This document shows, piece by piece, positions 3,951 through 55,261 of a DNA stretch of 64,000 bases; position 1 is the first letter of the stretch; every line of letters starts with the position of its first letter. Origin of the DNA: Thermofilum uzonense (lineage in GTDB: Archaea; Thermoproteota; Thermoprotei; Thermofilales; Thermofilaceae). A program made the position numbers and the translations under genes. The notes under the pieces are model-generated. The model was given only the letters and a program-made list of their open reading frames with translations, was not told where the DNA came from and did no database searches. Location: NCBI RefSeq assembly GCF_000993805.1, contig NZ_CP009961.1:800714-864713 (forward strand), given 5' to 3'.

Positions 3951-3975
3951 TAATAACCACTATGATTAGGGTTAA

Positions 3976-3984
3976 CATATAAAT
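3976..3984 (+). promoter_or_regulatory. Probable TATA box of the MalK-type ATPase gene
   Basis: An ATATAAATA element is centred about 36 bases before the ATG at 4016, which would leave a leader of roughly 10 bases. A second A/T-rich element (TATAAAAA, 3998-4005) is too close to the ATG to serve as the TATA box. Confidence 0.4.
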
Positions 3985-4015
3985 ATGCATGGTTAACTAT
4001 AAAAATTGAGAAGAC

Positions 4016-40080: not shown

Positions 40081-40898
40081 GTGAACCACCACGCAAGGAA
40101 AATTGTCAGGAATACCGTGAAAGCTAATACGAGGTAATCCTTTATTGTAAGCTTGCCTCTGTGTAGGCTTGCCGAGAAAGTAGTAGAGGGTTGTATCCCT
40201 CTAGACTCTAGTGCAAGGGATATCTCTAGACTTCTGGTTACCATAAGGGAGAGTAATGGTATCAAAGCGTTGAGGTAAATTCTGAATTTTCTTGCGAGAC
40301 TTGATTTTTCAAAATCAACTCCGCGTGCAATCATAGCCTCCCGAACTATAAGGAAATCTGAGACGAAGAAACTAATACCCCTAAAGAATAGAGAGGCTGA
40401 GATGCTCACCCATGCAGGTAATTTTAGCCTTCTTAACCCCCACACTATGTCCCGGTCGGATACAGTTGCTATAAAAAGCGTTGCGGTGAAAATCATCGCG
40501 AGTATTCTAAGAATGAAGAAAGCCGTCTGCAGGAGAGCTGTGTCTGTAATCAGTATCTTCCACTCCCATACTCCTCGTTCAGCGTTAACGCGCAAGATTG
40601 TCGTGGAGTAGAGGGTGTTACCTGGAACCTCTTTAAAGAAAACGAAGGATAAGACGATAAAGAAAGATAAACTCAGAATTAGGAATAAGTAGTTTTTCAG
40701 GAACCTCAATGGGACGCCCGCCCATAATAGAAACACGAGAGCTGTGACAGCCAACAGGGTAGCTGTGGTAATGTCCTTGACGAAGAACACGTCAAGCGAC
40801 AGAAAAAAAGGAACAATTATTCTAGTAACAGCGTCGAGTTCACTGTAACTTGTATGTCTTACATACACACCTGCAAGTTCCTCAAGTATTGTGGGCAT
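40068..40898 (-). CDS. ecfT: ECF transporter transmembrane subunit EcfT
   Basis: The 276-residue protein has about five membrane helices and a cytoplasmic part with two ATPase-coupling motifs, seen as REAMIARGVDF and LALESRGIQP, the Ala-Arg-Gly motifs of CbiQ/EcfT proteins. It links the fused ATPase to the substrate-binding S component. Its gene overlaps both neighbours or is within 4 bases of them. Confidence 0.9.
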   Translation of the reverse strand: MPTILEELAGVYVRHTSYSELDAVTRIIVPFFLSLDVFFVKDITTATLLAVTALVFLLWAGVPLRFLKNYLFLILSLSFFIVLSFVFFKEVPGNTLYSTTILRVNAERGVWEWKILITDTALLQTAFFILRILAMIFTATLFIATVSDRDIVWGLRRLKLPAWVSISASLFFRGISFFVSDFLIVREAMIARGVDFEKSSLARKFRIYLNALIPLLSLMVTRSLEISLALESRGIQPSTTFSASLHRGKLTIKDYLVLAFTVFLTIFLAWWFTWRF

Positions 40899-40901
40899 GG
40901 G

Positions 40902-41696
40902 CTAGGCCCACCATCCTTCGACATATAGTCCAGTCCTTTTGAATATGGGTGTTAATGCTGTCAGGATTCCCGTGGATAGAACCGAGAGCACGATAAAGTC
41001 TCCTATAACCCAGCCTGTGAATATAGGCCAGAAGAGTTCGGCTGGTAGGGGCGGTGGAACATTATATAGAGTCAGGGTGGCCGCTCCCCATATACCAGAC
41101 GCTACCGAGGTGAGTATTATGCTGGCAATGTACACGCCCCATGTCTTCGCATCGCCTACCAGGAGGCCAAGCATTATTCCTATGACTGCAAGCCCCAGTC
41201 CAGTATACACGCTCGCCACATAGATAGAGGTAAACGGTTCTCCTAGGGATCCCAGTAAAACCTGTATTATTATTCCAAGGATAAGTATAATGAAGCCTGT
41301 TGAGACGAATACTGGGAACAATCTAGCCGCAGCTCCACGTTTAACCGTGAAGTCTGGATCAATGCGTAGGATTCTAAATAAGAGGGCTGGGATAAAGGCC
41401 TCTATAAAGTCTGCGAAAGCCCAGATGACCGACTGGTACAGCGTATAGCCGCTCGGGTATAGTCCGAGGAAAAGACAGCTTAGGTACCCCGCAAGTGCTC
41501 CCCAACCACCCATCCAAATCCCTAAGGGGACGTAAACCGAGCTTGCAACGTAGAGAGCGGAGACACCTGGGGCTCCTAGAACTGGGAAAATCAGCGATGA
41601 GAGCACGGCAAGCACATACGCCATTGCTGTGGCAAGGATGAAGGTAACGATGTGGGCCCATGTAACCCCTCTTTTAAAGGCTTTTCCCTGCGTCAC
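40902..41696 (-). CDS. ECF transporter substrate-binding (S) component
   Basis: The 264-residue protein has six or seven membrane helices; APGVSALYVASSVYVPLGIWMGGWGALAGYLSCLFLG resembles the gated region of S components, and its gene precedes ecfT by 3 bases and ecfA as an operon. S components bind vitamins, nucleobases or metals. The flanking genes are two PRTase-fold proteins, one divergent with a DNA-binding-like N-terminus, so a purine or pyrimidine base is my guess, not a finding. A TATA box is centred 25 bases before the GTG start. Confidence 0.75.
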   Translation of the reverse strand: MTQGKAFKRGVTWAHIVTFILATAMAYVLAVLSSLIFPVLGAPGVSALYVASSVYVPLGIWMGGWGALAGYLSCLFLGLYPSGYTLYQSVIWAFADFIEAFIPALLFRILRIDPDFTVKRGAAARLFPVFVSTGFIILILGIIIQVLLGSLGEPFTSIYVASVYTGLGLAVIGIMLGLLVGDAKTWGVYIASIILTSVASGIWGAATLTLYNVPPPLPAELFWPIFTGWVIGDFIVLSVLSTGILTALTPIFKRTGLYVEGWWA

Positions 41697-41760: not shown

Positions 41761-41781
41761 ATTATCTTATTCGTGATAACA

Positions 41782-42510
41782 ATGTACTCGAAAAGAATCG
41801 AGGAAGCTACCACACAGGTCATATGTCACAAAGCCTTGAAGGCCGTTAGAGCACATATCCCCCCAAAGGAAATTCTCGAAGAACTGAATAGGGCAGGAAT
41901 AGATGTGTCGCCGGTGGACCTAAGCAGGTATCTTGGCGGTCTTGTTTTACCTGCGCCAGATAAAGCGTTGCAGATATTGGAGGCGATCTATAAAACCGGG
42001 CTAGCTGAGAGAGTGCTCCGTGTAAGGGTTCATGTAGACTCTCATGGGGTCGTCAATGTCCCAGACATAGCCTTCGATACTCGAATATTGGAGCTGGCCT
42101 CCGCGGTTGCATTCCTGTTATTTAGGGGTAGAGTGGATTTAGTCGTTACTGCTGCAACGAACGGCATACCACTGGCTTCTACCATTGCATCCTTCCTGGG
42201 GGCCAGACTTGCTGTAGCTAGACGTGAAAGAGAGAGCCCTAGCATTAAATATATAACAACTGGATTGTTTCTGAGGGATCCTCCTAGTTATGTCCACCTC
42301 TACCTTCCCGCTGATTCTATTCGGCGGGGTGACAGAGTTCTCATAGCCGACGATCTTTTTAGCACAGGTAGGACACTAAAGGCACTGCTAAATATGGTCG
42401 AGGAGGCGCGCGGGAATCCTATTGGAGGGTTTGCCCTTATAGCTATGGGCAACGCTTGGAGAGAAGTAGCTCCGAGCGGGCTTGAGATCGTAACTCTTCT
42501 AAACGTATGA
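41782..42510 (+). CDS. PRTase-fold transcription regulator, probable
   Basis: The C-terminal domain has a type I PRPP loop, VLIADDLFSTGRTLKAL, with the hood SIASFLGARLAVARR before it. The first 75 residues are helical with a helix-turn-helix-like stretch (PPKEILEELNRAGIDVSPVDLSRYLGG). This HTH-PRTase arrangement is that of PurR and of archaeal GfcR-type regulators. It is divergent from the ECF operon and is likely to regulate it, sensing PRPP or a nucleotide. The ATG at 41782 is preferred to GTG at 41773 on TATA spacing. Confidence 0.75.
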   Translation: MYSKRIEEATTQVICHKALKAVRAHIPPKEILEELNRAGIDVSPVDLSRYLGGLVLPAPDKALQILEAIYKTGLAERVLRVRVHVDSHGVVNVPDIAFDTRILELASAVAFLLFRGRVDLVVTAATNGIPLASTIASFLGARLAVARRERESPSIKYITTGLFLRDPPSYVHLYLPADSIRRGDRVLIADDLFSTGRTLKALLNMVEEARGNPIGGFALIAMGNAWREVAPSGLEIVTLLNV

Positions 42511-42549: not shown

Positions 42550-43254
42550 GTGATGGGCAGTAAAGCACCTGTTTTTGTTGTAGACTATGATGGAACACTA
42601 TCTCGTGAAAATACACCAGTCGAAGAGAAAGTACTTAACGCCATTCTTTCATTGAAGAATACTTATGGATTTAAACTTGTACTTGCGACGGCAAGGCCTT
42701 TTAGGGATATCGAGCAATTTGTAAATGCAGGGATTTTCGATGCTTTGATTCTTGAACTTGGAGGAGTTCTTCATTTCCCACCCTCAGATATCGTAGTCTT
42801 CAAGCCAAAGTGGTGGAATATGGTAATTGAAAAAATTGCTCTCAGAGTCCCACCGGTCAATAAAGGAGAGCTATTATATTATTTTGACGAGAATCATCTG
42901 CCACAGGCCCTCGAGGTTTTAAACATTATAAGTCCTACACACCCGGTAGAAGTTAAGAAGGTCGGCTCTAGAACTCATGTATTCGCCCCACAGGGACTCG
43001 ACAAAGGAGTGGGGCTTACAAGGCTTTCAAGGTTTATAAGCTTGGAAAAAGCTGAGATTATAGCTATTGGGGACAGCATGTCAGATATGCCCCTATTCAA
43101 GGCTGCCGGGTTTAGGATAGCTGTTGCTAATGCTGAAGAACGTATAAAGGTTGAGGCCGACTATGTGACAAAAAGTCTCTATGGTGAGGGCGTAGTTGAG
43201 GGCATAGGATTCTTTCTGGAAAAAACATCAGGTAAAAAAGAAGAGTATTTTTAA
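42550..43254 (+). CDS. HAD-superfamily IIB sugar phosphatase-like hydrolase
   Basis: Motifs: DYDGTLS (nucleophile Asp and acid/base Asp), LATAR, the Lys of LDKGVGL and GDSMSDMPLF. The C2-type cap between motifs II and III and the length of 234 residues fit the Cof/SPP subfamily, which dephosphorylates sugar phosphates, phosphoglycolate or mannosyl-phosphoglycerate. It is tail-to-tail with the PTS permease gene, and could be a phosphatase for a PTS product. Start may be GTG 42550 or the next codon, ATG. Confidence 0.82.
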   Translation: MMGSKAPVFVVDYDGTLSRENTPVEEKVLNAILSLKNTYGFKLVLATARPFRDIEQFVNAGIFDALILELGGVLHFPPSDIVVFKPKWWNMVIEKIALRVPPVNKGELLYYFDENHLPQALEVLNIISPTHPVEVKKVGSRTHVFAPQGLDKGVGLTRLSRFISLEKAEIIAIGDSMSDMPLFKAAGFRIAVANAEERIKVEADYVTKSLYGEGVVEGIGFFLEKTSGKKEEYF

Positions 43255-43264
43255 AAGAATTGTT

Positions 43265-44869
43265 TTATCCGAGGATTCCAAGGATGGCTAGTATGAAGGC
43301 TACGAGGAAGAGCACTATCACCGCTTTGCCGTAACTGTAGCCCTTGTTCTTGATTAGCCAGTACGTGAAGAGTGTGAAGAGTAACGGGAGTAGTGAGGGC
43401 ATAAGCTGGTCTAGGACTGGTTGCAGCTTTATGGCCTGCCCGTGGAACTGGGCTAGAACTATTGGCGTTGTGGCTCTCACGTAGGTTGCTGTAATCCCAC
43501 CTATCACTGCCATAGCGAACGCCATTACGGCTTCGCGGAAGACCTTCAAAACGTCTCCCTTGAGGACTTCTGAGAGCGAGAGACCGTACTTGTAGCCGTA
43601 CACTAGGGAGTAGTATTTGATAGCCCAGGAGACGGGAATCCATATGAGGAGTGCTACTAGCGGGCCCAGAATGTTACCGTTGACTCCTAGAGATGCTCCA
43701 AGGAGGAAGGCTATGGGAAGTAGGGTGAACCAGAGCATGGAGTCGCCTAGCCCTGCAAATGGTCCCATGAGGGCGGTCTTAACTCCACGAATTGTATCTG
43801 GGTCGGCGCCCTGCTCCTCAAGTGATATTACCATCCCGTATATCGCGTTGTGCACGTGGGGCTCCGTGTTGTAGAACTCGTTATGTAATCTCATCCAGGC
43901 TTTCAACTCCTCGGGGTCTTTTCTGAGCTTCTTTTCAACCTCTAGCATACCATGTGCGAAGCCCGTGCCCATCATTCTCTCATAGTTCCATGAAGACTGT
44001 ATGAACCATGATAATCCAAACCATCTGAAGAAGTCCTTCGAAGTCGCTGAGCCTTTAACCCCCTGAGACCCGGATGAAAGGGTTAACTGTTGGAGTGCTT
44101 CGCGGTGGGTGAACAGGTAGAGAGCAAAAATGATTGAGCCGGCAACTAATGCTATTGCGAGTAGGCTGAGTTTGAGGTAGGCGGCTAGTGCAAATCCGAG
44201 AATGTAGAAGGCTACCGTCTCCCTTGAAAGCATCATTTTCATCATTATAGCGGCACCTAGAGCTGGTAGAACTGCTCCGGCGACTCCCATCGCGTCCCAG
44301 AATCGAATCGTTAGCGGGCCTAGCTGTACTACTTGTAGTGCCTCGATGAAAGATTTCACGGCCTGCGGGTTTATCGCTAGCGCACCCACGAAGGCCCATA
44401 TAGGAATAGCTCTGCTGAGAGCCCACGGGACGGCGCCTAGGATATTTATGAGGGGTATTTTATCGAAGTTTCCTTTCTCGATCTCGGCGTCAGCCCAGTG
44501 GGTGAATACCGCGTCGAAGGATCTTACGACGATCTCCAGGTTCATCGTCAGGACTGCCACTGGTATTGCTAGTGGAACGGCTGCCTCAGGCTTTATCCCC
44601 GCTGTGATTGCAACTACGACTGAAGCAATTGTTCCTGTAGCAGCCTCAGGGACTGTTCCGCCGCCTATAGTGAAGAGTCCTGCAAATACGAATTCTAGTA
44701 GTGAGCCTACGATTAGACCTGTAATCGGGTCGCCTAGGATAATTCCTGTAAGGGTGCCTGCGACTACGGGGCGCCATATTCCAAGGGGGGTGACCCATAT
44801 GTAGTCGAGTCCGAAGATGAAGGCAAGCAGTCCTAGAAGTCCGACTTCAACTGGTCCTAGTGCTGTCAT
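43265..44869 (-). CDS. PTS mannose-family permease, fused IIC-IID
   Basis: Residues about 1-255 form a IIC domain of the mannose (Man) family (start VEVGLLGLLAFIFGLDY, GDPITGLIVGSLLEFVFAG, TGTIASV); a Ser/Gly-rich linker (about 263-277) leads to a IID domain (SSWNYERMMGTGFAHGMLEVE, HNEFYNTEPHVHNAIYGMVISLEE, PFAGLGDSMLW, with a hydrophobic C-terminus). IIC and IID are usually two proteins. The permease takes up the sugar while IIB phosphorylates it. The start ATG has a TATA box 27 bases upstream. IIA and IIB lie divergently on the plus strand. Confidence 0.93.
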   Translation of the reverse strand: MTALGPVEVGLLGLLAFIFGLDYIWVTPLGIWRPVVAGTLTGIILGDPITGLIVGSLLEFVFAGLFTIGGGTVPEAATGTIASVVVAITAGIKPEAAVPLAIPVAVLTMNLEIVVRSFDAVFTHWADAEIEKGNFDKIPLINILGAVPWALSRAIPIWAFVGALAINPQAVKSFIEALQVVQLGPLTIRFWDAMGVAGAVLPALGAAIMMKMMLSRETVAFYILGFALAAYLKLSLLAIALVAGSIIFALYLFTHREALQQLTLSSGSQGVKGSATSKDFFRWFGLSWFIQSSWNYERMMGTGFAHGMLEVEKKLRKDPEELKAWMRLHNEFYNTEPHVHNAIYGMVISLEEQGADPDTIRGVKTALMGPFAGLGDSMLWFTLLPIAFLLGASLGVNGNILGPLVALLIWIPVSWAIKYYSLVYGYKYGLSLSEVLKGDVLKVFREAVMAFAMAVIGGITATYVRATTPIVLAQFHGQAIKLQPVLDQLMPSLLPLLFTLFTYWLIKNKGYSYGKAVIVLFLVAFILAILGILG

Positions 44870-44890
44870 ACATTAGTGTTTTGGTATACT

Positions 44891-44948
44891 TTTTTATAAA
44901 GTTTTCTTAAGAAGAAAACATGATATACTTATGACTTGTTATAAGTCA
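44891..44948. promoter_or_regulatory. Divergent promoters and palindromes between IIC-IID and the IIA-IIB operon
   Basis: A minus-strand TTTATAAAAA (44891-44900) serves IIC-IID and a plus-strand TATACTTA (44924-44931) serves 44957. Between them lies a perfect palindrome GTTTTCTT-AAG-AAGAAAAC (44901-44919), and after the plus TATA is TGACTT-gttat-AAGTCA (44932-44948). Confidence 0.55.
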
Positions 44949-44956
44949 ATGAGAAC

Positions 44957-45841
44957 ATGGTTAAACGAGTGTTAGATTTAACAGGGCAAGAACTTGCCTC
45001 TATAACTGCTAAGGACTTCCTTGAGGCGGTTAAGGCCTCGGAGGGCAGAGTAGTGGCTGCTGAAGTCGTTGTAATTGCACGGCCGCTGGTAGACGGTGTT
45101 TCCAATGTTGAGCTCGCAGCGAGGTTCGGGGCTGACCTTCTGATTCTAAACATGTATGACGTTTTTGATCCCAAGGTTGAAGGAGTGCCACCTCAGCATA
45201 GTTCAATTGGAGGAATTTCTGTCTTCACCCAGCGATTTACAGGAAATAATCTTGAGCCTGTAGATGCAGGGATGCTCCCAGAGGGTAGGAGACTTACCAG
45301 AGAATCTGTGCTCAAAAGTATTGAACATGGTTCTCGCCTCTTGTTGGTTACAGGTAATCCGGGTCTAGGGGTGACGTGGAGGCGAATAGCTCTAGGAGTT
45401 GAGACAGCTAAATCGGTAGCTGCAGAAAAATCCATTGTTATGGGGGGTAAGATGCATAGTGGTGGATTAAGGGTTGAAAAAATGTTTGACTTGAATCTTA
45501 TCGAAGAAGTGCTGGCTAGGGGGGCTGACGGCATATTAATACCTGCGCCTTATACAGTTCCATCATCAACGCCCGAGAATGTTAGAACGGTTGTTTCACT
45601 GGCGGAGAAATACGATGTCTTAGTAATGTGTACAATCGGGACGTCCCAGGAGGGGGCCCAGCCGGAAGTCATAAGAAGCATAGCCTTGCAATCGAAGGCT
45701 TGCGGGTGTGACATTCACCATATCGGTGACTCAGGCTACTCGATGGGCATCGCTAGACCGGAAAACATACTGGAGCTCTCGATAGCTGTGCGAGGAGTAA
45801 GACACACTTATAAGCGTATAGCTATGTCTCACCTAAGGTGA
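44957..45841 (+). CDS. PTS-associated TIM-barrel-like protein (DUF7916-like)
   Basis: The 294-residue protein has the repeating beta-alpha pattern of a TIM barrel, with GADLLILNMYDVFDP, HGSRLLLVTGNPGLGVTW, GADGILIPAPYTVP, and ALQSKACGCDIHHIGDSGYSMGI. I recognise it, with moderate confidence, as the family found in PTS operons of Firmicutes and sometimes annotated as PEP phosphonomutase-like or haloacid dehalogenase-like. Its reaction is not known. It is the first gene of an operon with IIA, IIB and an oxidoreductase; its stop overlaps the IIA start as GTGA. A role in converting the sugar phosphate is likely from context. Confidence 0.65.
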   Translation: MVKRVLDLTGQELASITAKDFLEAVKASEGRVVAAEVVVIARPLVDGVSNVELAARFGADLLILNMYDVFDPKVEGVPPQHSSIGGISVFTQRFTGNNLEPVDAGMLPEGRRLTRESVLKSIEHGSRLLLVTGNPGLGVTWRRIALGVETAKSVAAEKSIVMGGKMHSGGLRVEKMFDLNLIEEVLARGADGILIPAPYTVPSSTPENVRTVVSLAEKYDVLVMCTIGTSQEGAQPEVIRSIALQSKACGCDIHHIGDSGYSMGIARPENILELSIAVRGVRHTYKRIAMSHLR

Positions 45842-46302
45842 AAAGCTTGAAACTCGTACTAGCCTCCCACGGGAGCCTTGGCTGTGAAATGATCAAAGCC
45901 GTGGCAATGATACTAGGCGTCTCCATAATGGAGAAAGCCAATTGTGTAGAGCTCCTCGAGGGAGAAAGCCTAGAAAATTATTACGAGAAACTCTCAAAGA
46001 CTGTCGACAAGGACACAGTCGTGCTCGCAGACCTCTTCGGGGGAACCCCGAGTCGAGCCGCACTAATGCTTCTCCAAGAGGGTAAGGTAAAGGCTGTATT
46101 AACAGGCTTTAACATGGCAATGATGATAGAGATTCTATCAAGCGATGCTAAAACTACTGAAGAACTTATTCAAAACGCGAGGAGAGCAGGCCGTGATGGT
46201 GTTAGAGCCTTTGTAGGCACAGATTTACGTGAACTTATTGACACCCAGGAAACCCAAGAAAAATCTTTTATCCAGCAGTTGTTAAGAAGAGTAAAAAGTT
46301 AA
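45838..46302 (+). CDS. PTS mannose-family IIA component
   Basis: IIA takes the phosphate from HPr and passes it to IIB. The 154 residues show the Man-type IIA fold: SHGSLG carries the phosphorylated His11, and DLFGGTPSRAAL is the second signature. The GTG start overlaps the preceding stop by four bases. It is a stand-alone IIA, unlike the IIAB fusion of E. coli ManX. Confidence 0.9.
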   Translation: MKSLKLVLASHGSLGCEMIKAVAMILGVSIMEKANCVELLEGESLENYYEKLSKTVDKDTVVLADLFGGTPSRAALMLLQEGKVKAVLTGFNMAMMIEILSSDAKTTEELIQNARRAGRDGVRAFVGTDLRELIDTQETQEKSFIQQLLRRVKS

Positions 46303-46317
46303 TGGTAGGGGGTCAAG

Positions 46318-46821
46318 GTGGGCTATCAGCAAAACATATTCATCAGGATTGATGACCGCTTCATACATGGACAAGTTACGGCTGCCTGGACAAAACGGTT
46401 CGGCGCGACTTCAATATGGGTCGTCAACGATAAGATAGCGTCGAACCCGGCACTTAAACAGCTGCAGTTAATGCTTGCTCCCCCAGGGGTATCGGTTCAG
46501 GTTCTTAAGGTAGAAGAGGCATCCGAAAAAGCAAAAAAGCTCAACAATAACGAGAAAGTTCTTATGCTCTTCGAGAACCCCGTGGATGTTGCCAGCTTTC
46601 TAGAAAAGTCGGGTATAAAAGTCGAATACGTTCTTCTAGGCCAGATGGGTTATAGGGCCGGGAGAGTAAAAATTGAAAAGACATTCGACATAGGTCCCGA
46701 GGACCATAAGGCTCTGCTGAGAATACTTGATATGGGCATAAAATTATACTACCAGCAACTCCCGGATTTTCCGCCCAAGCCCATAGACATGGAGCAGAAA
46801 ATTAGAAGCCTTAAGTTTTAG
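46318..46821 (+). CDS. PTS mannose-family IIB component
   Basis: IIB transfers phosphate to the sugar at the permease. The hallmark IRIDDRFIHGQV holds the active His17, and the 167 residues match Man-type IIB. GTG start with AGGGGGT-like sequence about 8 bases before it. It lies 15 bases after IIA and 9 before the oxidoreductase gene. Confidence 0.93.
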   Translation: MGYQQNIFIRIDDRFIHGQVTAAWTKRFGATSIWVVNDKIASNPALKQLQLMLAPPGVSVQVLKVEEASEKAKKLNNNEKVLMLFENPVDVASFLEKSGIKVEYVLLGQMGYRAGRVKIEKTFDIGPEDHKALLRILDMGIKLYYQQLPDFPPKPIDMEQKIRSLKF

Positions 46822-46830
46822 GGGATTTGT

Positions 46831-47949
46831 TTGAAAATAAGGGTCGGGATTATAGGATCTGGCTGGTCTGCAAACGCGTTAGCATGGGCGTTTAATGCGG
46901 TTAGATTTAGTGTAAGAGAGGAGAAGTTCCCTAAAATAGAGCTAGTCCGTGCTATGAGTAGAACAGCCAGGAAAGTCGAGGCCTTTGCGCGAGAGTACGG
47001 CTTTAAGGAGTGGACAACCAGCGAGACCGATTTCTTTAAGGGAGATTTAGACTTGATTGCTATAAGTACGCCTAATAACACACACGCCTTATACTCTATT
47101 AAGGCAATGGAGTCTGGAGCCGATATTATTATAGAAAAACCTTTCACCGTCTCGCTATCAGAGGCGAAAGACGTTGTTTCGAGAGCCGAAAAGCTGGGGA
47201 GAAAAGGCGCTATATGTCTAGTCTCGAGGCTTATTCCGGCTTCCGTGATTGCTCGCGACATGATTTCAAGAGGTGAACTGGGAGAAATAAGAGAGTTCAG
47301 GGCAGTTATAGCCCATGCAAAGCACGCCTACGAGGACACACGGTTCGAGTGGCGTATGAGTAAACAGGTTGCGGGTGGAGGGGTATTCGCGGATCTCGGC
47401 GTCCATGCTTTAGATCTCGCTGAGAGTATAACTTCCCGCAGGATAAAGAGGATTTTGGGACGAACATACACTGTTATTGTGGAGCGAAAGGATCCTGTAA
47501 CAAGGCAGAGCGTAAAGGTTGATACTGAGGATGTTGGCTTCGCATTATTCGAATACGAAAACGGAGCTCCTGGAATAGTGGAGGCTTCCAAGTTATCTCC
47601 TGGATTTGAGGAGCAGATGCGGGTCGAGATCCACGGATCAAGAGGAGGTGTACGGTTCACGCTAACAGAGCCACACACAGTATACCTGTTTAAGAGGGAG
47701 ACTCAGAGGATTGAGAAAATAGTCAAGGGATTCGAGGAGATATATCCATGGCTCAACTGGCCGGCACCTAAAAGCTTTGAGGGATGGGTGTACTCTTACC
47801 TTGTTCTTGTGAAAAATTTTGTGGACAATATTGCTGGGTTAAACGAGAGCCCCTATCCAAACCTCAAAGATGGTCTACGAAGCCAGGAACTTCTAAGCAG
47901 TTTTTACGAATCTGCTGCTAGCGGGAAACCCATAGAAGCCATTCTTTAA
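46831..47949 (+). CDS. Gfo/Idh/MocA-family oxidoreductase
   Basis: The N-terminal Rossmann domain starts VGIIGSGWSA and the family's EKPF lies at residues 102-105. The C-terminal beta domain includes GGGVFADLGVHALDLAE, with the conserved Asp and His. Members oxidise or reduce sugars, amino sugars and cyclitols with NAD(P). The 372 residues fit. It begins with a TTG that follows GGGGAT. As the last gene of the IIA-IIB operon it may modify the imported sugar phosphate or a derivative. Confidence 0.9.
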   Translation: MKIRVGIIGSGWSANALAWAFNAVRFSVREEKFPKIELVRAMSRTARKVEAFAREYGFKEWTTSETDFFKGDLDLIAISTPNNTHALYSIKAMESGADIIIEKPFTVSLSEAKDVVSRAEKLGRKGAICLVSRLIPASVIARDMISRGELGEIREFRAVIAHAKHAYEDTRFEWRMSKQVAGGGVFADLGVHALDLAESITSRRIKRILGRTYTVIVERKDPVTRQSVKVDTEDVGFALFEYENGAPGIVEASKLSPGFEEQMRVEIHGSRGGVRFTLTEPHTVYLFKRETQRIEKIVKGFEEIYPWLNWPAPKSFEGWVYSYLVLVKNFVDNIAGLNESPYPNLKDGLRSQELLSSFYESAASGKPIEAIL

Positions 47950-47998
47950 ATGTCTCTACTTACAAGATAACTTGTAAAGCCGAACAGTCTCAACTTAA

Positions 47999-49243
47999 TT
48001 AGTTATCCTTCAAAGATCTATCATTGATCATAGCTTGTATTTGACCTCGTATCCTGACCTTATCCTGTTTAGAGACAAGCTCGAAAATATACTCATAGCT
48101 TTTAGTTGCTTCTGGAGCTAGATACGCGTAGTAACCGTTTGCGTAGGAGACGATAAGTGTTGGTAAAGAGGTGCTAGCACGTGCTTCAAACAAGCCTGAA
48201 GAAACCTCGAAAGGCAGCCAGATGCTATGCAATATTCCCTTAAGTGTCAATCTTACGATTATTGCCTGGACATTCCTTGGCCAAGCCTTTAAACCGGAAA
48301 GCTTTTCTAAGAGCTCTTTTCCTTCCATTGCGGCTTCAGACCTACGATCCGTTTTCTCTCTACCTACTTCAGAAAAGAATGAAACTTCGCTAAGCTTCTC
48401 AGATGGATGTTTAAGCCTAAGATCCACCTGGTGCTGTTCGACTGAGATGTCTTCAGCTCGTGCTTCTTTAGTGGTAAATATGGGTGCAGAGCCAATGGTT
48501 TGTCTTGCAAGTAGGACTCCCAAACGTTGAGCCTCCGAAAAATTCTGTCCTTTGCGGACGAACCTTGTTGAAACGTTACCCGCCTCTCCATTTACAAAGA
48601 GACATGTCTTAACGCCGAGTTTTTCCTCGATATAATCTGTAGCATACCCGACTAAATCCCGCGAGATGAGGAGATTCTCGGGTCCAAGTACAGTGGGATG
48701 GACACCAAAGTGGAGTAGACCACACTTATCTCCGTTTCTTGAAGAAAAAACTAGAAGCGTAGACTTATCGTTTATCTCACGTGCAGGATCATCCCTGTCG
48801 GTAGCTACACCCTTCACCTTTGCTGTATAGAGGCTTACACTGGCTTGAGAAAGTTTTTCCTCGGCCTCTAGGACAGCATGTTCGAGGGAATCTAAGACAT
48901 AGTCGAAGTAAAGTTTGTCAAACACCTCGTCTCCAAAGGTCAGTAAAGGTGATTTAAACAATGAGGCTGGAGCTGAGTGAGTATGAGTTCCAACCGCTAT
49001 AAACACTTCCCGGCTACTCGCCACCCTCGATTTTGCCGAAGCATACAAATTCTCATCAACTCCCAGTAGGTCAAAACTAGTTATCAGGACTCGAAGCCCT
49101 CCAGATTCCAGTAATAACACCTTGACAAATATGTCATCATGTACTCCCTGCGAGGGCTCCTTCCTCCTAATGTACCCGGCAAGGGGGTGACCCGCCGGAT
49201 TCTCTGGAGTAATAACAGCTTTACCACACCCTACTCGAAGCAT
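47999..49243 (-). CDS. Neutral ceramidase-like Zn hydrolase
   Basis: The sequence starts VGCGKAVITPENPAGHPLAGYIRR, as in the neutral ceramidase family, and has the zinc/catalytic motifs THTHSAPA, LLHFGVHPTVLG and NGEAGNVSTR. It has about 414 residues, with no signal peptide, thus cytoplasmic, and lacks much of the C-terminal domain of true ceramidases. An N-acyl amide is the expected target. It is the last gene in the operon nagA - GlmS-like - this gene. The ATG at 49243 starts right at the domain; a GTG at 49267 overlapping the upstream stop is the alternative. Confidence 0.75.
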   Translation of the reverse strand: MLRVGCGKAVITPENPAGHPLAGYIRRKEPSQGVHDDIFVKVLLLESGGLRVLITSFDLLGVDENLYASAKSRVASSREVFIAVGTHTHSAPASLFKSPLLTFGDEVFDKLYFDYVLDSLEHAVLEAEEKLSQASVSLYTAKVKGVATDRDDPAREINDKSTLLVFSSRNGDKCGLLHFGVHPTVLGPENLLISRDLVGYATDYIEEKLGVKTCLFVNGEAGNVSTRFVRKGQNFSEAQRLGVLLARQTIGSAPIFTTKEARAEDISVEQHQVDLRLKHPSEKLSEVSFFSEVGREKTDRRSEAAMEGKELLEKLSGLKAWPRNVQAIIVRLTLKGILHSIWLPFEVSSGLFEARASTSLPTLIVSYANGYYAYLAPEATKSYEYIFELVSKQDKVRIRGQIQAMINDRSLKDN

Positions 49244-49263
49244 TGAATATCGCTCTTTATAGT

Positions 49264-51093
49264 TCACCTTAAGACTGCCTTAGTTAAATAACGTGGAGCA
49301 TCGATTGGCCTACCTAGATCCACGCCGAGGCGATATGCAAAGAGCTGGAGAGGTATCGAGTAGGCGATTGGTGCTAGGTGTCGCTCTGCTCTCGGAGTTC
49401 TTATAAGGGAAACTGTTTCGGTTTGAATTTGAGATAATTTCTCGTCGCCCTCTAGACTGAAAACCACTGTGGAGGCCCCCGCCTCGATAGCTGAGAGAAT
49501 TAACGGGTAGGTGGCTTCAGCGGCCAGTCTCTCGACAGGAATTATGAATCCCGTCATGAAGCCTTTCTCAACGAGAACAAAGGGACCATGCTTAAACTCG
49601 CCTGCTTCAACACCCTCCGCGTGGAAGTAGGAGGCTTCCTTGAGCTTTAAAGCCGCCTCCAGTGCTAATGGGTATGTTATTCCTCTCGAGACAATATATC
49701 CGCCGCGGCAATTCCTCGCATGGATAATTGCCTTTTTAACCTCCTCATCCATTCTCGTCATTGTCTCTGAGAGCCGGGAGGCCACAGATTTTACTGACTC
49801 CATTTTTTCTCTATAGGTAATTGAATCTATGCGTCCGGATTCCTTAGACGCCGCTAGTGAGACCAGGTAGAGCAGGAGAAGAGTCGAGGTGAAAGTCTTT
49901 GTTGCGGGTACTGAAAGCTCTGGACCAGCCGCTATTGGAAGATAAACATTTGACAGCCTCGCTAGTCTAGAGCCTATATAGTTTGTAAGTCCAAGAATCG
50001 TAGCTCCTCTGATTTTTGCTTCGTATAGTGAGGATAAAACATCTCCTGTTTCGCCAGATTGCGATATTGCGACTACCAGGCTTCCAGGACCAATATTTTC
50101 TACATAGTAAAGTGGGAACTCCGCGGCACTTGTAACTACAGGGCTTACGCCCACTAGCTCGGAAAGATAGTATGAGGCTACCATTCCAGCGTGGAGGCTT
50201 GTGCCGTTAGCAATAATGTATATGTTGTCGGCGCCAAGGATTAGACGTGAGGCGAGCTGCAGGTATTTCTCTTGGAGGGTGTATAGCGTTCGCAGTAGTG
50301 AAAGTGGTGCCTCATATATTTCTCGAAGCATATGATGTGGGAAGCCTCCCTTATCAACGAGTGCAGGGTCTACCTCGAGAGTCAACACTTGTCTCGGGGT
50401 TGTCTCATGTCCTTTTGAGTATACATTTACTCCTTCGCTTGTGACAAAGACAGTTTCAGAAGGGTCAATGATAATGTAGTGATCGGTAAACCCGTGGAGT
50501 GCTGTCAGCGTATTTGTCAAGTAGAAAGCGTTTGGGGATACTCCGACGTAGAGCTTCGTCATGGATGAGTATGCAGCTATACTGGCTGTGTCCCGATCCA
50601 ACACGGAAACCGTGTAAAACCCTTCAAGTTTCTCCTTGAGAGTCTCGAGAGCATTCAATAGGTTATCCTCTCGTTCTAGGGACTCTTCCAAGAGGTGGGC
50701 TGGCGGCTCAAAGTCGCTCCTGGACTGAAGCTTGTGTCCAGACATGAGGACTTGGTCCTTTATTTTCTCATAATTTCCGATAGAGCCGTCGCCAGCTACA
50801 GCTATTCTTTGCCTGCAGTCAGTAAATGGGTGAGCATTCTCAGCAGTTGGTCTGCCATGGGTTGCATACCTGGTCTGTCCTAGGGCAATGGAGGCTTTTC
50901 GTTCGCTGAGGCCGAGTTTTTCAACTACGATATCTACCCAGCCGACCTCCTTATAGACGTTTAGTATACCATCCTCGATGAGTGCAAAGCCTGTACTGTC
51001 GAATCCTTTAAAACGCAGCTTTCTTAGTCCCGAAATCACCTGAGGGACAACATTCTCGTTTTTCCTAGAGACAACCGCAAATATTCCGCCCAA
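49264..51093 (-). CDS. GlmS-like double-SIS protein without a glutaminase nucleophile
   Basis: The whole 609-residue layout is that of glutamine:fructose-6-phosphate aminotransferase, with an N-terminal Ntn domain (about 1-240) and two SIS domains (about 280-420 and 450-609). The SIS part keeps ISQSGETGD, AGEFKHGPF, and the PRYLTKAVL terminus. The Ntn domain keeps QTRYATHG and NAHPF, but the first residue after Met is Gly, not Cys, and the glutamine-binding NG segment reads GDGSIGNY. Ammonia supply from glutamine is thus unlikely. Between nagA and a hydrolase gene, the protein is better explained as a deaminase-isomerase of a hexosamine 6-phosphate. Confidence 0.88.
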   Translation of the reverse strand: MGGIFAVVSRKNENVVPQVISGLRKLRFKGFDSTGFALIEDGILNVYKEVGWVDIVVEKLGLSERKASIALGQTRYATHGRPTAENAHPFTDCRQRIAVAGDGSIGNYEKIKDQVLMSGHKLQSRSDFEPPAHLLEESLEREDNLLNALETLKEKLEGFYTVSVLDRDTASIAAYSSMTKLYVGVSPNAFYLTNTLTALHGFTDHYIIIDPSETVFVTSEGVNVYSKGHETTPRQVLTLEVDPALVDKGGFPHHMLREIYEAPLSLLRTLYTLQEKYLQLASRLILGADNIYIIANGTSLHAGMVASYYLSELVGVSPVVTSAAEFPLYYVENIGPGSLVVAISQSGETGDVLSSLYEAKIRGATILGLTNYIGSRLARLSNVYLPIAAGPELSVPATKTFTSTLLLLYLVSLAASKESGRIDSITYREKMESVKSVASRLSETMTRMDEEVKKAIIHARNCRGGYIVSRGITYPLALEAALKLKEASYFHAEGVEAGEFKHGPFVLVEKGFMTGFIIPVERLAAEATYPLILSAIEAGASTVVFSLEGDEKLSQIQTETVSLIRTPRAERHLAPIAYSIPLQLFAYRLGVDLGRPIDAPRYLTKAVLR

Positions 51094-51095
51094 GT

Positions 51096-52250
51096 CTAAT
51101 CCCCTTGATATGCCTCTACACCGCCAATAATAGTCTTTTCAACACTTAGCTTATCATTCAATAAGACCAGGTCGGCATTATAGCCTAGAGCTATAACACC
51201 GAACTCTCCGCCCAGACCAATACTCTGAGCGGGATTCGTTGAAGCCATTCTGAGAGCGTCCTGGATGCTTACCCCGAGTTTAACCATGTTGGATACTGCT
51301 TTGTCAAGGGTTAACGTGCTTCCAGCTAGAGCTCCTGTTTCAGCTAGGTGCGAAACACCATTCTTGACGATTATCTTGAGCCCTCCGAGTGTATACTCGC
51401 CATCTGGGAGGCCTGTAGCTGCAACTGCGTCCGTGATTAGAATAACTCTTCTAGGCCCAGCCGTTTTAACGACTAGCCTCATGGTAGTTGGGTGTAAGTG
51501 TATGAAATCCGATATCATTTCAATGTAAACATTCTCCTGATCAAGCAATGCCATGGCTAGGCCGGGTTCTCGATGGTGGAAGCCACGCATCTGATTAAAT
51601 ATATGGTTGGCTTTCGATGCCCCCGCTAGTACTGCATTCATCGCTTCAGCATAGGTTGCATCACTGTGTCCCAGGCTTACAACAATTCCCCGTTTTACAG
51701 CCTCCCTAATGAATTCATATGCACCAGGTAACTCAGGGGCAACGGTAACCTGTTTTAAAAGACCCCTTGCCTCTTCTTGAAACTCTAAGAGCTCTTGAAG
51801 AGAGGGGTTCTTGAAGTGGCCTGGATTCATAGCCCCCCTCATCTTGGGGTTTAGATATGGACCTTCAAGATGTACTCCGAGAATACGTGCACCTCGTCCT
51901 TCATTCCATGCATGCGCCGCTTGAGCTATCTCGTTACAGGCTTTTATTAGTTGGTTGTGGGGAGCGGCAACAGTTGATGCAAGGAAACCAGTAACTCCGT
52001 GCTTTACAAGAAGACCAGAGACTTTTAGTATATCACTCGAGCTTGCTGTCGTGAAATCAACGCCTCCATAGCCGTGAAAGTGCGTGTCTATAAAACCTGG
52101 AGCTACTATCAGCCCGGTAGCGTCTATCGTTTTATCCCCGGTAAGATTCTCACCGATCTGTTGGATCCTCCCGGACTCGATAGCAATATCCTTTGAACCT
52201 ATATCTGCGAATGGGGTTAGTACTCTTCCCCCCTTAATAACCAACTTCAT
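51096..52250 (-). CDS. nagA: N-acetylglucosamine-6-phosphate deacetylase
   Basis: NagA removes the acetyl group from GlcNAc 6-phosphate or a related amino sugar phosphate in the cytoplasm. Metal and catalytic motifs are present: DTHFHGYGG, HLEGPYLNP, SLGHSDAT, NHIFNQM and ITDAVAATGLPDGEY. Length 384 is typical. I take the ATG at 52250, since residues of a longer frame from 52325 lack similarity and the ATG is followed directly by the first strand (MKLVIKGGRVLTP). It is first in the operon with the GlmS-like and ceramidase-like genes and divergent from ptsI. Confidence 0.93.
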   Translation of the reverse strand: MKLVIKGGRVLTPFADIGSKDIAIESGRIQQIGENLTGDKTIDATGLIVAPGFIDTHFHGYGGVDFTTASSSDILKVSGLLVKHGVTGFLASTVAAPHNQLIKACNEIAQAAHAWNEGRGARILGVHLEGPYLNPKMRGAMNPGHFKNPSLQELLEFQEEARGLLKQVTVAPELPGAYEFIREAVKRGIVVSLGHSDATYAEAMNAVLAGASKANHIFNQMRGFHHREPGLAMALLDQENVYIEMISDFIHLHPTTMRLVVKTAGPRRVILITDAVAATGLPDGEYTLGGLKIIVKNGVSHLAETGALAGSTLTLDKAVSNMVKLGVSIQDALRMASTNPAQSIGLGGEFGVIALGYNADLVLLNDKLSVEKTIIGGVEAYQGD

Positions 52251-52269
52251 ACTTACCGCTATGTAATTA

Positions 52270-52296
52270 AAGAAGCTTATGGCTAAAAAGCTTCTT
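52270..52296. promoter_or_regulatory. Operator-like inverted repeat between nagA and ptsI
   Basis: AAGAAGCTT and AAGCTTCTT are perfect 9-base arms 9 bases apart. They cover the region from the nagA TATA-like element (52295-52302, TTATTTAA on the minus strand) to its predicted start and lie in front of ptsI. Confidence 0.5.
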
Positions 52297-52349
52297 AAAT
52301 AATCTCTTTTAAGCAATGAAGGCAAGGCAATGTTTATCTAGTATGGGTC

Positions 52350-54077
52350 ATGGATGAAAACGTGCTGGCTGAGGGTATTGTAGCCTCACCCGGAATAGCT
52401 GTCGGACGAGCCCATGTATCAAGAAAGATAGATATCTTGGAGAAAATAAGGAGTGAAAGAGTCCAAAACGTCACAGTAGAAGTTGAAAAGCTAAAAAACG
52501 CAGGAAATATCTTGGCTGAGAAGCTTAATGAGATTAAAAGGCTACTTCCAAAGGAGGAACAGGAAATAATTGATGCCCAACTCCTTATTCTCGACTCTTT
52601 TGTCTCAGAGGCCTCAGAGCTTATAAAGAGCCTCGGATACTCGGCAGCATTCGCTGTTCGCGAAATCTATGAGAAGTATGGCGAGATGATGAGGCAGGGA
52701 GGCGAGCTTTTCGCACTGAGGGCACAGGATCTCCGGGACCTAGCATCCAGGCTGGTAGGTCTATTATCGGAGCAAAGCATTTCTACTTCTGCAAGATATG
52801 AGGTAGTTATAGGAGAGGAGATAGACCCTATAGAATTTCTCGAGCTAGCCAACAGCGGCGTAAAAGGTCTCGTGACCAAGGAAGGAGGAGTTACATCCCA
52901 TGTAGCCATACTAGCTCGTCTCCGCGGCATCCCCTATATCATAGCCCGTAAACTCGATATCAACAAGATAAGAGATGGCATTACAGTCATTGTAGACGCT
53001 TTAAACGGCCTAATCATACTCGAACCCAGTGAAGAAGAACTTAAAAAGTACGAGGCAATAGCGATCGAATATAGGAAACTCTTAGAGGCATTTTCACGTG
53101 AAAGCAAGCTAGAGGCGTTGACTCTTGATGGGCATAAAGTAAATATATATTGTAATATTGGAAATTTTGAAGAGCTCAGAATTCTAGACGAGTACGGGTG
53201 CGAGGGTGTAGGATTATTCCGCGTGGAATTTGCGTATATGCAACGCTCTTCACCTCCAACCGAGGAGGAACTCTACGAGCTTTTCTCAAAAGCAGCTCAG
53301 ATATTGGGTGAAAAGCCTTTAACTGTAAGAGCCCCCGATATCGGGGGAGATAAGCCCATACCTTTTATCGAGCTCCCAAATGAGGCTAACCCTCAACTCG
53401 GTCTCAGAGGGGTGCGACTCCTATTTAAATACGAGGACCTCTTACTCGTTCCACTAGTCCGAGCCCTTCTAAGGGCTTCAGTCCATGGCAAGCTCAGGCT
53501 TATGCTTCCCATGGTAAGCACGGTAGATGAGGTTTTGTATTTCCAGGAGGTCGTGGAGCGAGAGAGGAAGAATTTAGAGTCGAGTGGAGTGAGGACGGGT
53601 AGGCTCGAACTAGGAGTTATGATCGAAACTCCGTCTGCCGCACTGCTTGCAAACGATCTCATTGAAAGAGGGGGATTAAGCTTCATAAGCTTCGGTACAA
53701 ATGATTTGACACAATACGTGTTAGCTGCGGACAGAGGAAACAGTCTTGTCAGCTACCTCTACGACGAACTTAACCCCTCCGTCCTAAGACTCATCTCGCT
53801 TGCTGCGAAAAGGGCTAAGGGTAGGGCTGAGATAGAGGTTTGTGGGGAAGTAGCTTCGAAGCCTCTTGCGATACCTCTACTCATTGGCTTGGGTGTGGAA
53901 AGCCTTAGCGTCTCACCACAGTTTGTGGGAAAGGTAAAGTACATCATTAGAAGAGTAACCCTGTCGAAAATAAAGGGCGAGGTTGAAAACATCATTGAAG
54001 TCGCGAAGACGAACATCGATATAAAGAAGTGGTCCGAGGCGTTGCTTAGGAGTAGCGGGATAACCTTTATCGAGTGA
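52350..54077 (+). CDS. ptsI: PTS enzyme I
   Basis: Enzyme I takes phosphate from PEP and gives it to HPr. The phosphorylated His is His184 in GGVTSHVAILAR (usually GGRTSHAAI). The C-terminal PEP-binding barrel has DIGGDKPIP, LPMVSTVDEV, SFGTNDLTQYVLAADR and VCGEVASKP with its catalytic Cys. Its 575 residues are typical. It is divergent from nagA and convergent with the HPr gene. All motifs needed for activity are seen. Confidence 0.96.
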   Translation: MDENVLAEGIVASPGIAVGRAHVSRKIDILEKIRSERVQNVTVEVEKLKNAGNILAEKLNEIKRLLPKEEQEIIDAQLLILDSFVSEASELIKSLGYSAAFAVREIYEKYGEMMRQGGELFALRAQDLRDLASRLVGLLSEQSISTSARYEVVIGEEIDPIEFLELANSGVKGLVTKEGGVTSHVAILARLRGIPYIIARKLDINKIRDGITVIVDALNGLIILEPSEEELKKYEAIAIEYRKLLEAFSRESKLEALTLDGHKVNIYCNIGNFEELRILDEYGCEGVGLFRVEFAYMQRSSPPTEEELYELFSKAAQILGEKPLTVRAPDIGGDKPIPFIELPNEANPQLGLRGVRLLFKYEDLLLVPLVRALLRASVHGKLRLMLPMVSTVDEVLYFQEVVERERKNLESSGVRTGRLELGVMIETPSAALLANDLIERGGLSFISFGTNDLTQYVLAADRGNSLVSYLYDELNPSVLRLISLAAKRAKGRAEIEVCGEVASKPLAIPLLIGLGVESLSVSPQFVGKVKYIIRRVTLSKIKGEVENIIEVAKTNIDIKKWSEALLRSSGITFIE

Positions 54078-54108
54078 TATCAAATCTTAAGAATGGCTCC
54101 GATGAAGG

Positions 54109-54384
54109 TTATTTGTCCTGTTCAGGCAATACTTCGAGGATGAGCTTTGACAGCTCCTCAACAGCCTTATCCTCATCGGGACCCTCGGCAATCAACTCTA
54201 TCTCATCACCCATATCTATTCCTAGAGAGAGTATTTGCAAAATGTTTTTTGAGTCGGCAGATTTTCCATTCTTCTTAACCGTTATCTTCGACGTAAAGCT
54301 CTTGGCATGTTGGACAAAAATCGCTGCAGGCCTAGCATGCAAGCCGCTTTTATTGCGCACTTTAAGTCGAACCTGCCGAGCCAC
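54109..54384 (-). CDS. ptsH: Phosphocarrier protein HPr
   Basis: The 91-residue protein has SGLHARPAA with the phosphorylated His16 and SKNILQILSLGI, where the Ser46 of Firmicutes HPr is Asn47. It relays phosphate from enzyme I to IIA. The start is GTG with a TATA box centred 28 bases upstream. Gene end is 31 bases from the end of ptsI, tail to tail, instead of the usual ptsHI operon. Confidence 0.93.
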   Translation of the reverse strand: MARQVRLKVRNKSGLHARPAAIFVQHAKSFTSKITVKKNGKSADSKNILQILSLGIDMGDEIELIAEGPDEDKAVEELSKLILEVLPEQDK

Positions 54385-54405
54385 AAGGTAAACGATTCTC
54401 CCTAC

Positions 54406-54416
54406 AAATTTATATG
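54406..54416 (-). promoter_or_regulatory. TATA box of ptsH
   Basis: CATATAAATTT on the minus strand lies about 28 bases before the GTG at 54384, giving a leaderless HPr mRNA. Confidence 0.5.
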
Positions 54417-54523
54417 CTTTTTTGATAATTGAGGATTTAGTAGTGTATTGTTTAGGAGTATATTGTCTCTCAGGAATAAATCATGCTTTTATATTTCCAA
54501 TGTGAATACTAATTGATAAGCAA

Positions 54524-55261
54524 ATGAACGCTCTCGAGAGGTTTTATAACAGTGTAACTGAGCACCTGCATAACGTTTTCCTCTCACAAAGGGAAAACAT
54601 GGAGAAAGCAGCCGAGGAGATAGCTGATTCAATGTCAAGAGGGGGCTTCCTATACGTTTTCGGGACGGGGCACTCGATGATAATGGCCCTGGAAATGTTT
54701 TATAGGGCTGGAGGCCTAGTCAGAGTATATCCCTTGTTTGATTTAAGCCTGTCAGGCCTCGGGGGGGCCGTCAGGAGCACGTTCCTGGAGAGAACCCCAA
54801 ATTATGCAAAGGCTATTCTTGACTCTGTATCTGTCTATCCAAACTCTGTCCTCATTATTGTGAGCAACTCGGGAAAGAACTCTGTTCCCGTTGAGATGGC
54901 AGAGGAGGCCCATAGGAGGGGGTTAAAAGTGATAGCCATCACAAGCGTTGAATATAGTCGCCGGGTACCGGCTTCTAATCCCTTAGGTAAAAAGCTGTAC
55001 GAGTTGGCAGACATCGTGATAGACAATAAGGTTCCGGAGGGGGATGCTATTCTAGAAATAGAGGGATTCACGCAAAAAGTGGCACCCATATCCACGATAG
55101 TCTGCGCGTTTATCTTGCAGTCAATCGCTGCGCGCGTGGTAGAAAAGCTTCTTGAGAGGGGCCTGGAGCCCGAAGTATGGATGAGCGCAAATGTTCCCGG
55201 TGGAGATGAGAGAAATAAAAGATATATAGAAAAATACTCTGAAAAGATTAAATACCTTTAA
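54524..55261 (+). CDS. SIS-domain sugar phosphate protein (UPF0309-like)
   Basis: The 245 residues make one SIS domain: [20 protein letters not shown], then [21 protein letters not shown] with the Ser-Asn-Ser-Gly phosphosugar loop. The pattern, including the N-terminal helix and GTGHS, fits the UPF0309 group, whose members bind or isomerise sugar phosphates. It sits at the edge of the PTS region with its own promoter (TTTTATATTT near 54485-54495). It may handle the amino sugar or be a phosphosugar sensor. Confidence 0.78.

Follow-up and report, generated by a model that had tools for sequence, protein, structure and literature searches.

The locus examined here raises the question of which sugar the bacterial-style PTS of a heat-loving archaeon brings into the cell and how that sugar is then broken down. 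It lies in a 64,000-nucleotide window of the Thermofilum uzonense genome (contig NZ_CP009961.1, positions 800,714 to 864,713), the whole stretch of DNA that was analysed, and all coordinates below refer to this window. In our assessment, the module probably serves PEP-driven uptake and catabolism of an N-acetylhexosamine, most likely GlcNAc, and ends in deamination by a GlmS paralogue. From the observed gene content, residues, co-occurrence and phylogeny we infer the substrate, the direction of the GlmS-like reaction and the accessory roles.

The PTS genes are interleaved with genes for NagA, a GlmS-like protein, a DUF7916 protein, a Gfo/Idh oxidoreductase, a ceramidase-like hydrolase, a HAD phosphatase and a SIS protein. 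With the exception of DUF7916, which it overlooked, these genes had been named by a first-pass annotation of the window; all of them are open at the positions given below and match curated families. The annotation had also proposed a comparison with other Thermofilum genomes, and most of the gene order was found to be retained there. Since a near-identical module recurs in other members of the genus and parts of it occur in further Thermoproteota families, the module is not a chance arrangement. A search for an operator shared by the three divergent promoter regions found no 8-mer that occurs in all of them, and inverted repeats seen in T. uzonense are not claimed as one.

The claim of a full archaeal PTS with intact phosphoryl His residues was borne out, with every component scoring over its family cut-offs. 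Enzyme I (52350-54077, + strand) reaches 446 bits on TIGR01417 against a cut-off of 342, and alignment to a solved EI (2hro) places its phosphoryl His184 and its PEP-site Cys498. HPr (54109-54384, - strand) exceeds the cut-offs of TIGR01003 and PF00381 (101 bits on the latter), with an aligned phosphoryl His16 and an Asn at the regulatory Ser46 position. The mannose-family IIA (45838-46302, + strand; PF03610, 56 bits) has an aligned phosphoryl His11, and His17 of the mannose/sorbose-family IIB (46318-46821, + strand; PF03830, 137 bits) aligns with that of E. coli ManX IIB. The permease (43265-44869, - strand) is a single ORF of 534 aa that fuses an EII-Sor (IIC) domain at residues 9-247 (PF03609, 192 bits) to an EIID-AGA (IID) domain at residues 276-533 (PF03613, 279 bits), and it matches the E. 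coli ManY/ManZ structures. The phosphoryl residues of EI, HPr, IIA and IIB, together with both IIC and IID, are among the features that define a mannose-family PTS, and a complete system of this type is supported as a prediction from genes and residues. Thermofilum pendens has been reported to carry a PTS transporter (PMC2678158), in agreement with its citation as a known crenarchaeal case. In our survey of 398 Thermoproteota genomes HPr was found in 20, and PTS genes in this phylum extend beyond Thermofilum.

An N-acylated hexosamine had been suggested as the substrate, and several findings strengthen that suggestion. NagA (51096-52256, - strand) scores 315 bits on the GlcNAc-6-P deacetylase model TIGR00221 against a cut-off of 226, and its metal-binding and catalytic motifs HxH, HLEGP, GHSDA, NHIFN and ITDA are intact when aligned to solved NagA. 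The company that DUF7916 keeps in bacteria, the likeness of the SIS protein to NagS and the co-occurrence of the GlmS-like protein with NagA, all described below, point the same way. An N-acetylhexosamine is thus the supported substrate, most likely GlcNAc and less probably GalNAc. Against this, neither chitin nor chitosan supports growth of T. uzonense; no test of free GlcNAc was found in the consulted part of its description (PMC4673724).

The GlmS-like protein (49264-51093, - strand) passes the TIGR01135 cut-off (460 bits vs 418). A glutamine-dependent GlmS has the catalytic Cys1 and the oxyanion Asn98; this protein begins with MGG rather than MCG, and GDG replaces its oxyanion Asn-Gly. It is glutaminase-dead because Cys1 is replaced by Gly and Asn98 by Asp, and by these residues it cannot be a normal glutamine-dependent synthase. 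C1G, N98D and the loss of W74 occur in all 29 paralogues (the window protein and 28 relatives), whereas Cys1, Asn98 and W74 are present in 19 of 19 canonical copies. The isomerase residues E481, H504 and K603 (E. coli numbering, aligned) are kept in every one of the 29 paralogues and in all canonical copies, and a phylogeny separates the two groups with 100/100 support. The same genome encodes a canonical GlmS elsewhere (724 bits; contig positions 190830-192641), and a search of the T. uzonense genome found no NagB, which rules out NagB as the deaminase. With a normal GlmS elsewhere and NagB absent, the paralogue is predicted to be a GlcN-6-P deaminase, GlmS probably running backwards. Against this, it does not pass the curated models for SIS-type GlcN-6-P deaminases and falls far below them (68.3 of 580 bits for GlmD and 112.2 of 430 for NagB-II).

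Across the 398 Thermoproteota genomes, NagA was found in 37 of the 50 that carry a dead GlmS and in 24 of the 348 others; some of the 13 dead-GlmS genomes in which NagA was not found are incomplete. The two genes lie within 2.2 kb of each other in 16 genomes, ten of which lack HPr. Dead GlmS is directly beside NagA even in genomes without a PTS, and the phylum-wide search ruled out an exclusive link between the GlmS-like gene and the PTS.

The overlooked gene at 44957-45841 (+ strand) encodes a DUF7916 protein (PF25509, 345 bits). AlphaFold models (pLDDT 88.8 and 92.7) predict a TIM barrel. Among 26 Bacillota loci, 22 have DUF7916 beside a GlcNAc-PTS-type (nag-type) IIBC, and seven of the eight such IIBCs tested exceed the curated TIGR01998 cut-off. 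Its neighbours at other bacterial loci are NagB (L047), AgaS-LacD in an Enterococcus PTS operon (L050) or GH20 (L055). A sequence search of the PDB returned NanE (ManNAc-6-P 2-epimerase) as the best match with an E value of 0.23, and hhalign gave NanE a 91% probability over 128 columns vs 0.4-3% for four controls. Foldseek matched only generic TIM barrels at TM about 0.5-0.6, and therefore no enzyme name was assigned from the fold; aldolase and PEP mutase, one of them a name in a public record, were set aside on this basis. DUF7916 marks GlcNAc-PTS operons and is a candidate enzyme of phospho-amino-sugar metabolism, with a possible distant likeness to NanE. We lean slightly towards a joint proposition, that a discrete glutaminase-dead GlmS subfamily in about 50 of 398 Thermoproteota genomes provides these archaea's GlcN-6-P deaminase and that DUF7916 is an undescribed phospho-amino-sugar enzyme shared with bacterial GlcNAc PTS operons.

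The SIS-domain protein of the UPF0309 family (54524-55261, + strand) scores 311 bits on PRK02947 against a cut-off of 135. Its closest solved structure is NagS (PDB 9eol, E 2.7e-44), a Streptomyces GlcNAc-6-P dehydratase that binds GlcNAc-6-P (PMC12680351). Identity to NagS is about 38%, and eight of nine NagS residues studied by mutation are identical, the exception being S91, which is Thr here; the essential H53, R64, E94 and D179 correspond to H50, R61, E89 and D174. This level of identity places the protein outside the Streptomycetaceae NagS clade (58.7% or more), and homologues from outside Streptomycetaceae at 26-36% identity showed little or no activity on GlcNAc-6-P (PMC12680351). The Gfo/Idh/MocA oxidoreductase (46831-47949, + strand; PF01408, PF22725, PF02894) is, judging from gene order, probably the GH109-like MA03_04265 of the T. 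uzonense description (PMC4673724). The neutral-ceramidase-like hydrolase (47999-49267, - strand) matches PF04734 with 64 bits in its N-terminal half and conserves the HxH, His and Tyr motifs. In other families, several PTS or NagA-GlmS clusters have neither of these genes beside them, and hence both are dispensable for the core. The HAD-IIB phosphatase gene (42550-43254, + strand; PF08282, 97.6 bits) adjoins the permease gene in those Thermofilum loci that reach that far, and its product probably acts on a sugar phosphate. Upstream lies a gene for an adenine PRTase/PurR-like phosphoribosyltransferase-domain protein (41773-42510, + strand; PF00156; 150.9 bits on PRK08558, under the cut-off of 184). 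Its position is kept in three loci (L029, L189 and L191), and in Thermofilum it often adjoins the HAD gene; a tie to the amino-sugar pathway is uncertain.

In the proposed pathway, phosphate would pass from PEP through EI, HPr and IIA to IIB, and the fused IIC-IID permease would import the sugar as GlcNAc-6-P. NagA would convert this to GlcN-6-P and acetate, and the GlmS paralogue, with its dead glutaminase and intact isomerase domain, would yield fructose-6-P and ammonia in place of NagB. The DUF7916, UPF0309, Gfo/Idh, ceramidase-like and HAD proteins would be accessory, probably acting on side forms of the amino sugar phosphate.

The same PTS module might instead import GalNAc or galactosamine, with breakdown via tagatose-6-P in the manner of the E. 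coli aga operon. Among NCBIfam subfamilies the best models are indeed from this GalNAc/Aga branch, AgaF for IIA and AgaW for the IIC half, and the Enterococcus operon noted above associates DUF7916 with AgaS. However, every subunit scores well under the Aga cut-offs, the cluster contains neither a tagatose-bisphosphate aldolase nor a tagatose-6-P kinase, DUF7916 chiefly accompanies GlcNAc-type IIBC, and a GlmS-derived isomerase domain is expected to act on GlcN-6-P. We consider this route unlikely, and GlcNAc stays the favoured substrate.

Slightly less likely still is that the dead GlmS works as an ammonia-dependent GlcN-6-P synthase, or else as a regulatory pseudoenzyme, with the pathway ending elsewhere. 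The isomerase residues are intact, which makes it chemically feasible for the enzyme to run forward on free ammonia; moreover, the dead glutaminase domain has been kept rather than deleted. Nevertheless, the genome also encodes a canonical glutamine-dependent enzyme, the paralogue tracks the catabolic NagA across families, and the genome has no NagB to complete the pathway. Doubtful to a similar degree is a rarer N-acylated or ether-linked amino sugar, for instance one that is MurNAc-like or has a longer N-acyl chain. It would account for the ceramidase-like hydrolase, the oxidoreductase and the SIS protein, three conserved accessory genes without a role in plain GlcNAc breakdown, and the UPF0309 protein NagS has a relative in MurQ, the MurNAc-6-P etherase (PMC12680351). 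Yet NagA clears the cut-off of a GlcNAc-6-P deacetylase model, and the first two accessory genes are not core.

A Thermofilum PTS had been known before, from T. pendens. The present analysis supports and sharpens the amino-sugar interpretation and adds the glutaminase-dead GlmS paralogue, the link of DUF7916 to the GlcNAc PTS and the NagS likeness of the SIS protein. If the reading is correct, duplicating GlmS and inactivating the glutaminase half of one copy would be a way for archaea without NagB to complete the catabolism of amino sugars. Dead-GlmS proteins are automatically named glutamine--fructose-6-phosphate transaminase, which would put a catabolic enzyme on the biosynthetic side of many archaeal metabolic models. 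The analysis also links DUF7916, a family of many bacteria that is found on Enterococcus faecium plasmids as well, to GlcNAc import, and it shows that PTS phosphocarriers in Thermoproteota are not confined to Thermofilum.

Compared with known systems, the module shares its genus and its PTS transporter with T. pendens, and order and content are conserved across the sampled Thermofilum genomes. PMC2678158 records gene presence only, and we found no description of the pathway or the GlmS paralogue in the literature searched. Bacterial GlcNAc operons (nagE/nagP-nagA-nagB) share PTS import, NagA and, in many Bacillota, a DUF7916 neighbour, but use a Glc-family IIBC permease and NagB where Thermofilum has a mannose-family fused IIC-IID and a GlmS-derived protein. 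The E. coli aga/gam system for GalNAc and galactosamine likewise combines a mannose-family EII, a deacetylase and a SIS-fold protein for deamination; its AgaS is a short SIS protein, whereas the Thermofilum counterpart is a GlmS of full length whose glutaminase domain is dead, in a cluster without tagatose aldolase. Thermococcus GlmD and NagB-II are SIS-domain GlcN-6-P deaminases, as predicted for the Thermofilum protein, and are relatives of the GlmS isomerase half; neither has a glutaminase domain, which the Thermofilum protein retains in inactivated form. With Streptomyces NagS the SIS protein shares its UPF0309 family and nearly all of the mutated residues, and with the haloarchaeal PTS of Haloferax volcanii the module shares archaeal EI and HPr, although on the haloarchaeal model for HPr the Thermofilum protein scores only 69.5 of 140 bits.

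All the genes named in the first-pass annotation at 42550-55261 were found to be intact open reading frames matching curated families, and the order of the cluster is HAD (+), IIC-IID permease (-), DUF7916 (+), IIA (+), IIB (+), Gfo/Idh (+), ceramidase-like (-), GlmS-like (-), NagA (-), EI (+), HPr (-) and SIS (+). Alignment to solved relatives confirmed that the phosphoryl histidines are intact (EI His184, HPr His16, IIA His11 and IIB His17) and placed the PEP-site cysteine of EI at position 498. The permease is a single 534-residue chain carrying IIC and IID together, and it matches the ManY and ManZ structures. HPr (54109-54384) aligns an Asn with the regulatory Ser46 position, which makes control by an HPr kinase unlikely. 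By eye, we also noted that the divergent promoter regions at 44865-44975 and 52250-52365 hold inverted repeats, GTTTTCTT-AAG-AAGAAAAC and AAGAAGCTT...AAGCTTCTT, respectively; neither had a counterpart in the relatives' intergenic regions compared in the same way. Adjoining the cluster (38428-41696) are ECF-type transporter genes encoding a two-domain ATPase, a CbiQ-like T component and an unassigned membrane protein, possibly the S component.

The GlmS-like protein (49264..51093, -) starts with Met-Gly-Gly, whereas canonical GlmS starts with Met-Cys-Gly. Its TTG start codon comes immediately after the stop codon of NagA, and no alternative in-frame start with Cys lies farther upstream. In an alignment with E. 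coli GlmS numbering, all 29 members of this glutaminase-dead subfamily have Gly for Cys1, Asp for Asn98 and Tyr, Phe or Ser for Trp74, whereas Cys, Asn and Trp occupy these positions in 19/19 canonical archaeal copies. The two groups split with 100/100 support, and the isomerase residues E481, H504 and K603 are retained in all 48 proteins. Cys1 is the nucleophile that frees ammonia from glutamine, and for this reason the subfamily should be unable to use glutamine; its sugar half looks functional. A canonical GlmS is encoded elsewhere in the T. uzonense genome (724 bits), and no NagB-type deaminase was found in that genome.

A profile built from the dead paralogues gave a high-scoring copy in 50 of 398 genomes, about 30 of them checked by residue and the others assigned by score. 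NagA exceeded its curated cut-off in 61 genomes: 37 of the 50 with a dead paralogue and 24 of the 348 without one (Fisher p = 4e-25, shared ancestry ignored). In 16 genomes the two genes start no more than 2.2 kb apart (for example, at loci L100, L105, L106, L111, L113 and L116), and 10 of the 16 lack HPr; the association is therefore independent of the PTS. This pairing is consistent with a deacetylation step that leads into deamination.

Lying between the permease and IIA genes, the ORF at 44957..45841 (+) belongs to DUF7916 (PF25509), a family not named in the open literature searched. DUF7916 exceeded the cut-off in 27 of 299 Bacillota genomes, and in 22 of 26 Bacillota loci an IIBC resembling the GlcNAc-specific type lies 1-4 kb away. 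Eight such IIBC proteins were scanned: seven exceed the curated cut-off for GlcNAc specificity (TIGR01998), and the other is a shorter ORF. NagA adjoins it at L163 and L164, and elsewhere its neighbours are NagB (L047), an AgaS-like SIS protein with LacD (L050) or GH20 (L055). The structure is confidently predicted to be a TIM barrel; a fold search returned general TIM barrels only, and profile comparison gave 91% for NanE versus 0.4-3% for four control enzymes. We take DUF7916 to be an enzyme acting on phospho-amino-sugars; that it might be an epimerase is a guess. Plasmids of E. faecium and E. durans also carry the gene (L050, L055 and L056), beside SIS-LacD-PTS genes or beside GH20 and an annotated hyaluronate lyase gene. 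Of the 221 matching plasmid records, many bear the names HAD hydrolase or PEP phosphonomutase, to which the Pfam match gives no support.

The nearest solved structure to the SIS protein (54524..55261, +) is the UPF0309 protein SCO4393 (E 2.7e-44), known as NagS, a GlcNAc-6-P dehydratase (PMC12680351). Nine residues were mutated in that study; eight are identical here, and Ser91 is replaced by Thr. We do not call the protein NagS because homologues at 26-36% identity had no or almost no activity (PMC12680351); its family tie to GlcNAc-6-P stands. At L189 (G171, 2787-4339), near a split Thermofilum cluster, a further SIS gene of the UPF0309 type, 62% to the copy in the window, adjoins a partial GlmS-like match (29%).

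Comparison across other Thermofilum genomes, as proposed in the first-pass annotation, revealed that gene order is mostly kept at L025/L191, L030/L190 and L032, partly kept at L192, and divided into two parts at L027/L189. Among 398 sampled Thermoproteota genomes, HPr exceeded its curated cut-off in 20 and IID occurred in only 10, including all seven sampled Thermofilum. In a tree limited to 13 archaeal EIs, none of them haloarchaeal, and 20 EIs of Bacillota and Chloroflexota, a branch (98/98) separates the archaeal from the bacterial proteins. Compared with its near-identical relative L030/L190 (G147), L029 (G177:C2) is missing approximately 4.8 kb, covering the ceramidase-like gene, Gfo/Idh, IIB, IIA, DUF7916 and the permease's first third, and retains EI, HPr, NagA and the GlmS paralogue; the gap may reflect genuine decay or an artefact of assembly. 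A second amino-sugar-like PTS type in Thermoproteota is found at L048/L036 (G224), where lactose/cellobiose-type components (PF02378 IIC, PF02255 IIA) occur with EI, HPr, a double-SIS protein, a ceramidase-like gene and DUF7916. In two related genomes (L022 and L023; G199 and G241), HPr adjoins a 248-aa ORF matching the N-terminal part of EI only.

Taken together, the earlier interpretation of an amino-sugar PTS taking up an N-acylated hexosamine is supported and refined. PEP would drive the import of GlcNAc, entering as GlcNAc-6-P, NagA would deacetylate it, and the dead-glutaminase GlmS would then deaminate the product to Fru-6-P. The substrate is a weak point of this reading, as the subunit models, each scoring under its cut-off, tilt slightly towards the GalNAc branch; the reaction direction of the GlmS-like protein is another. 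Neither chitin nor chitosan supports growth of T. uzonense (PMC4673724), and thus other organisms would have to set the substrate free as a small sugar. The requirement of T. uzonense for culture filtrates of other archaea is in line with this, suggestive but no more.

Neither the glutaminase-dead GlmS subfamily, with its tie to NagA, nor the link between DUF7916 and GlcNAc PTS operons appeared in the open literature searched, most subscription journals lying outside it. Two entries in the genome paper of T. uzonense 1807-2 (PMC4673724), which makes no mention of a PTS, probably correspond to genes of this cluster: the CE9 enzyme MA03_04280, judged by position, to NagA, and the GH109-like oxidoreductase MA03_04265 to Gfo/Idh. 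That Thermofilum has a PTS is already known: the transporter is on record in T. pendens (PMC2678158), the known case named in the first-pass annotation, and T. adornatum is mentioned as carrying a PTS transporter gene (PMC6965361).
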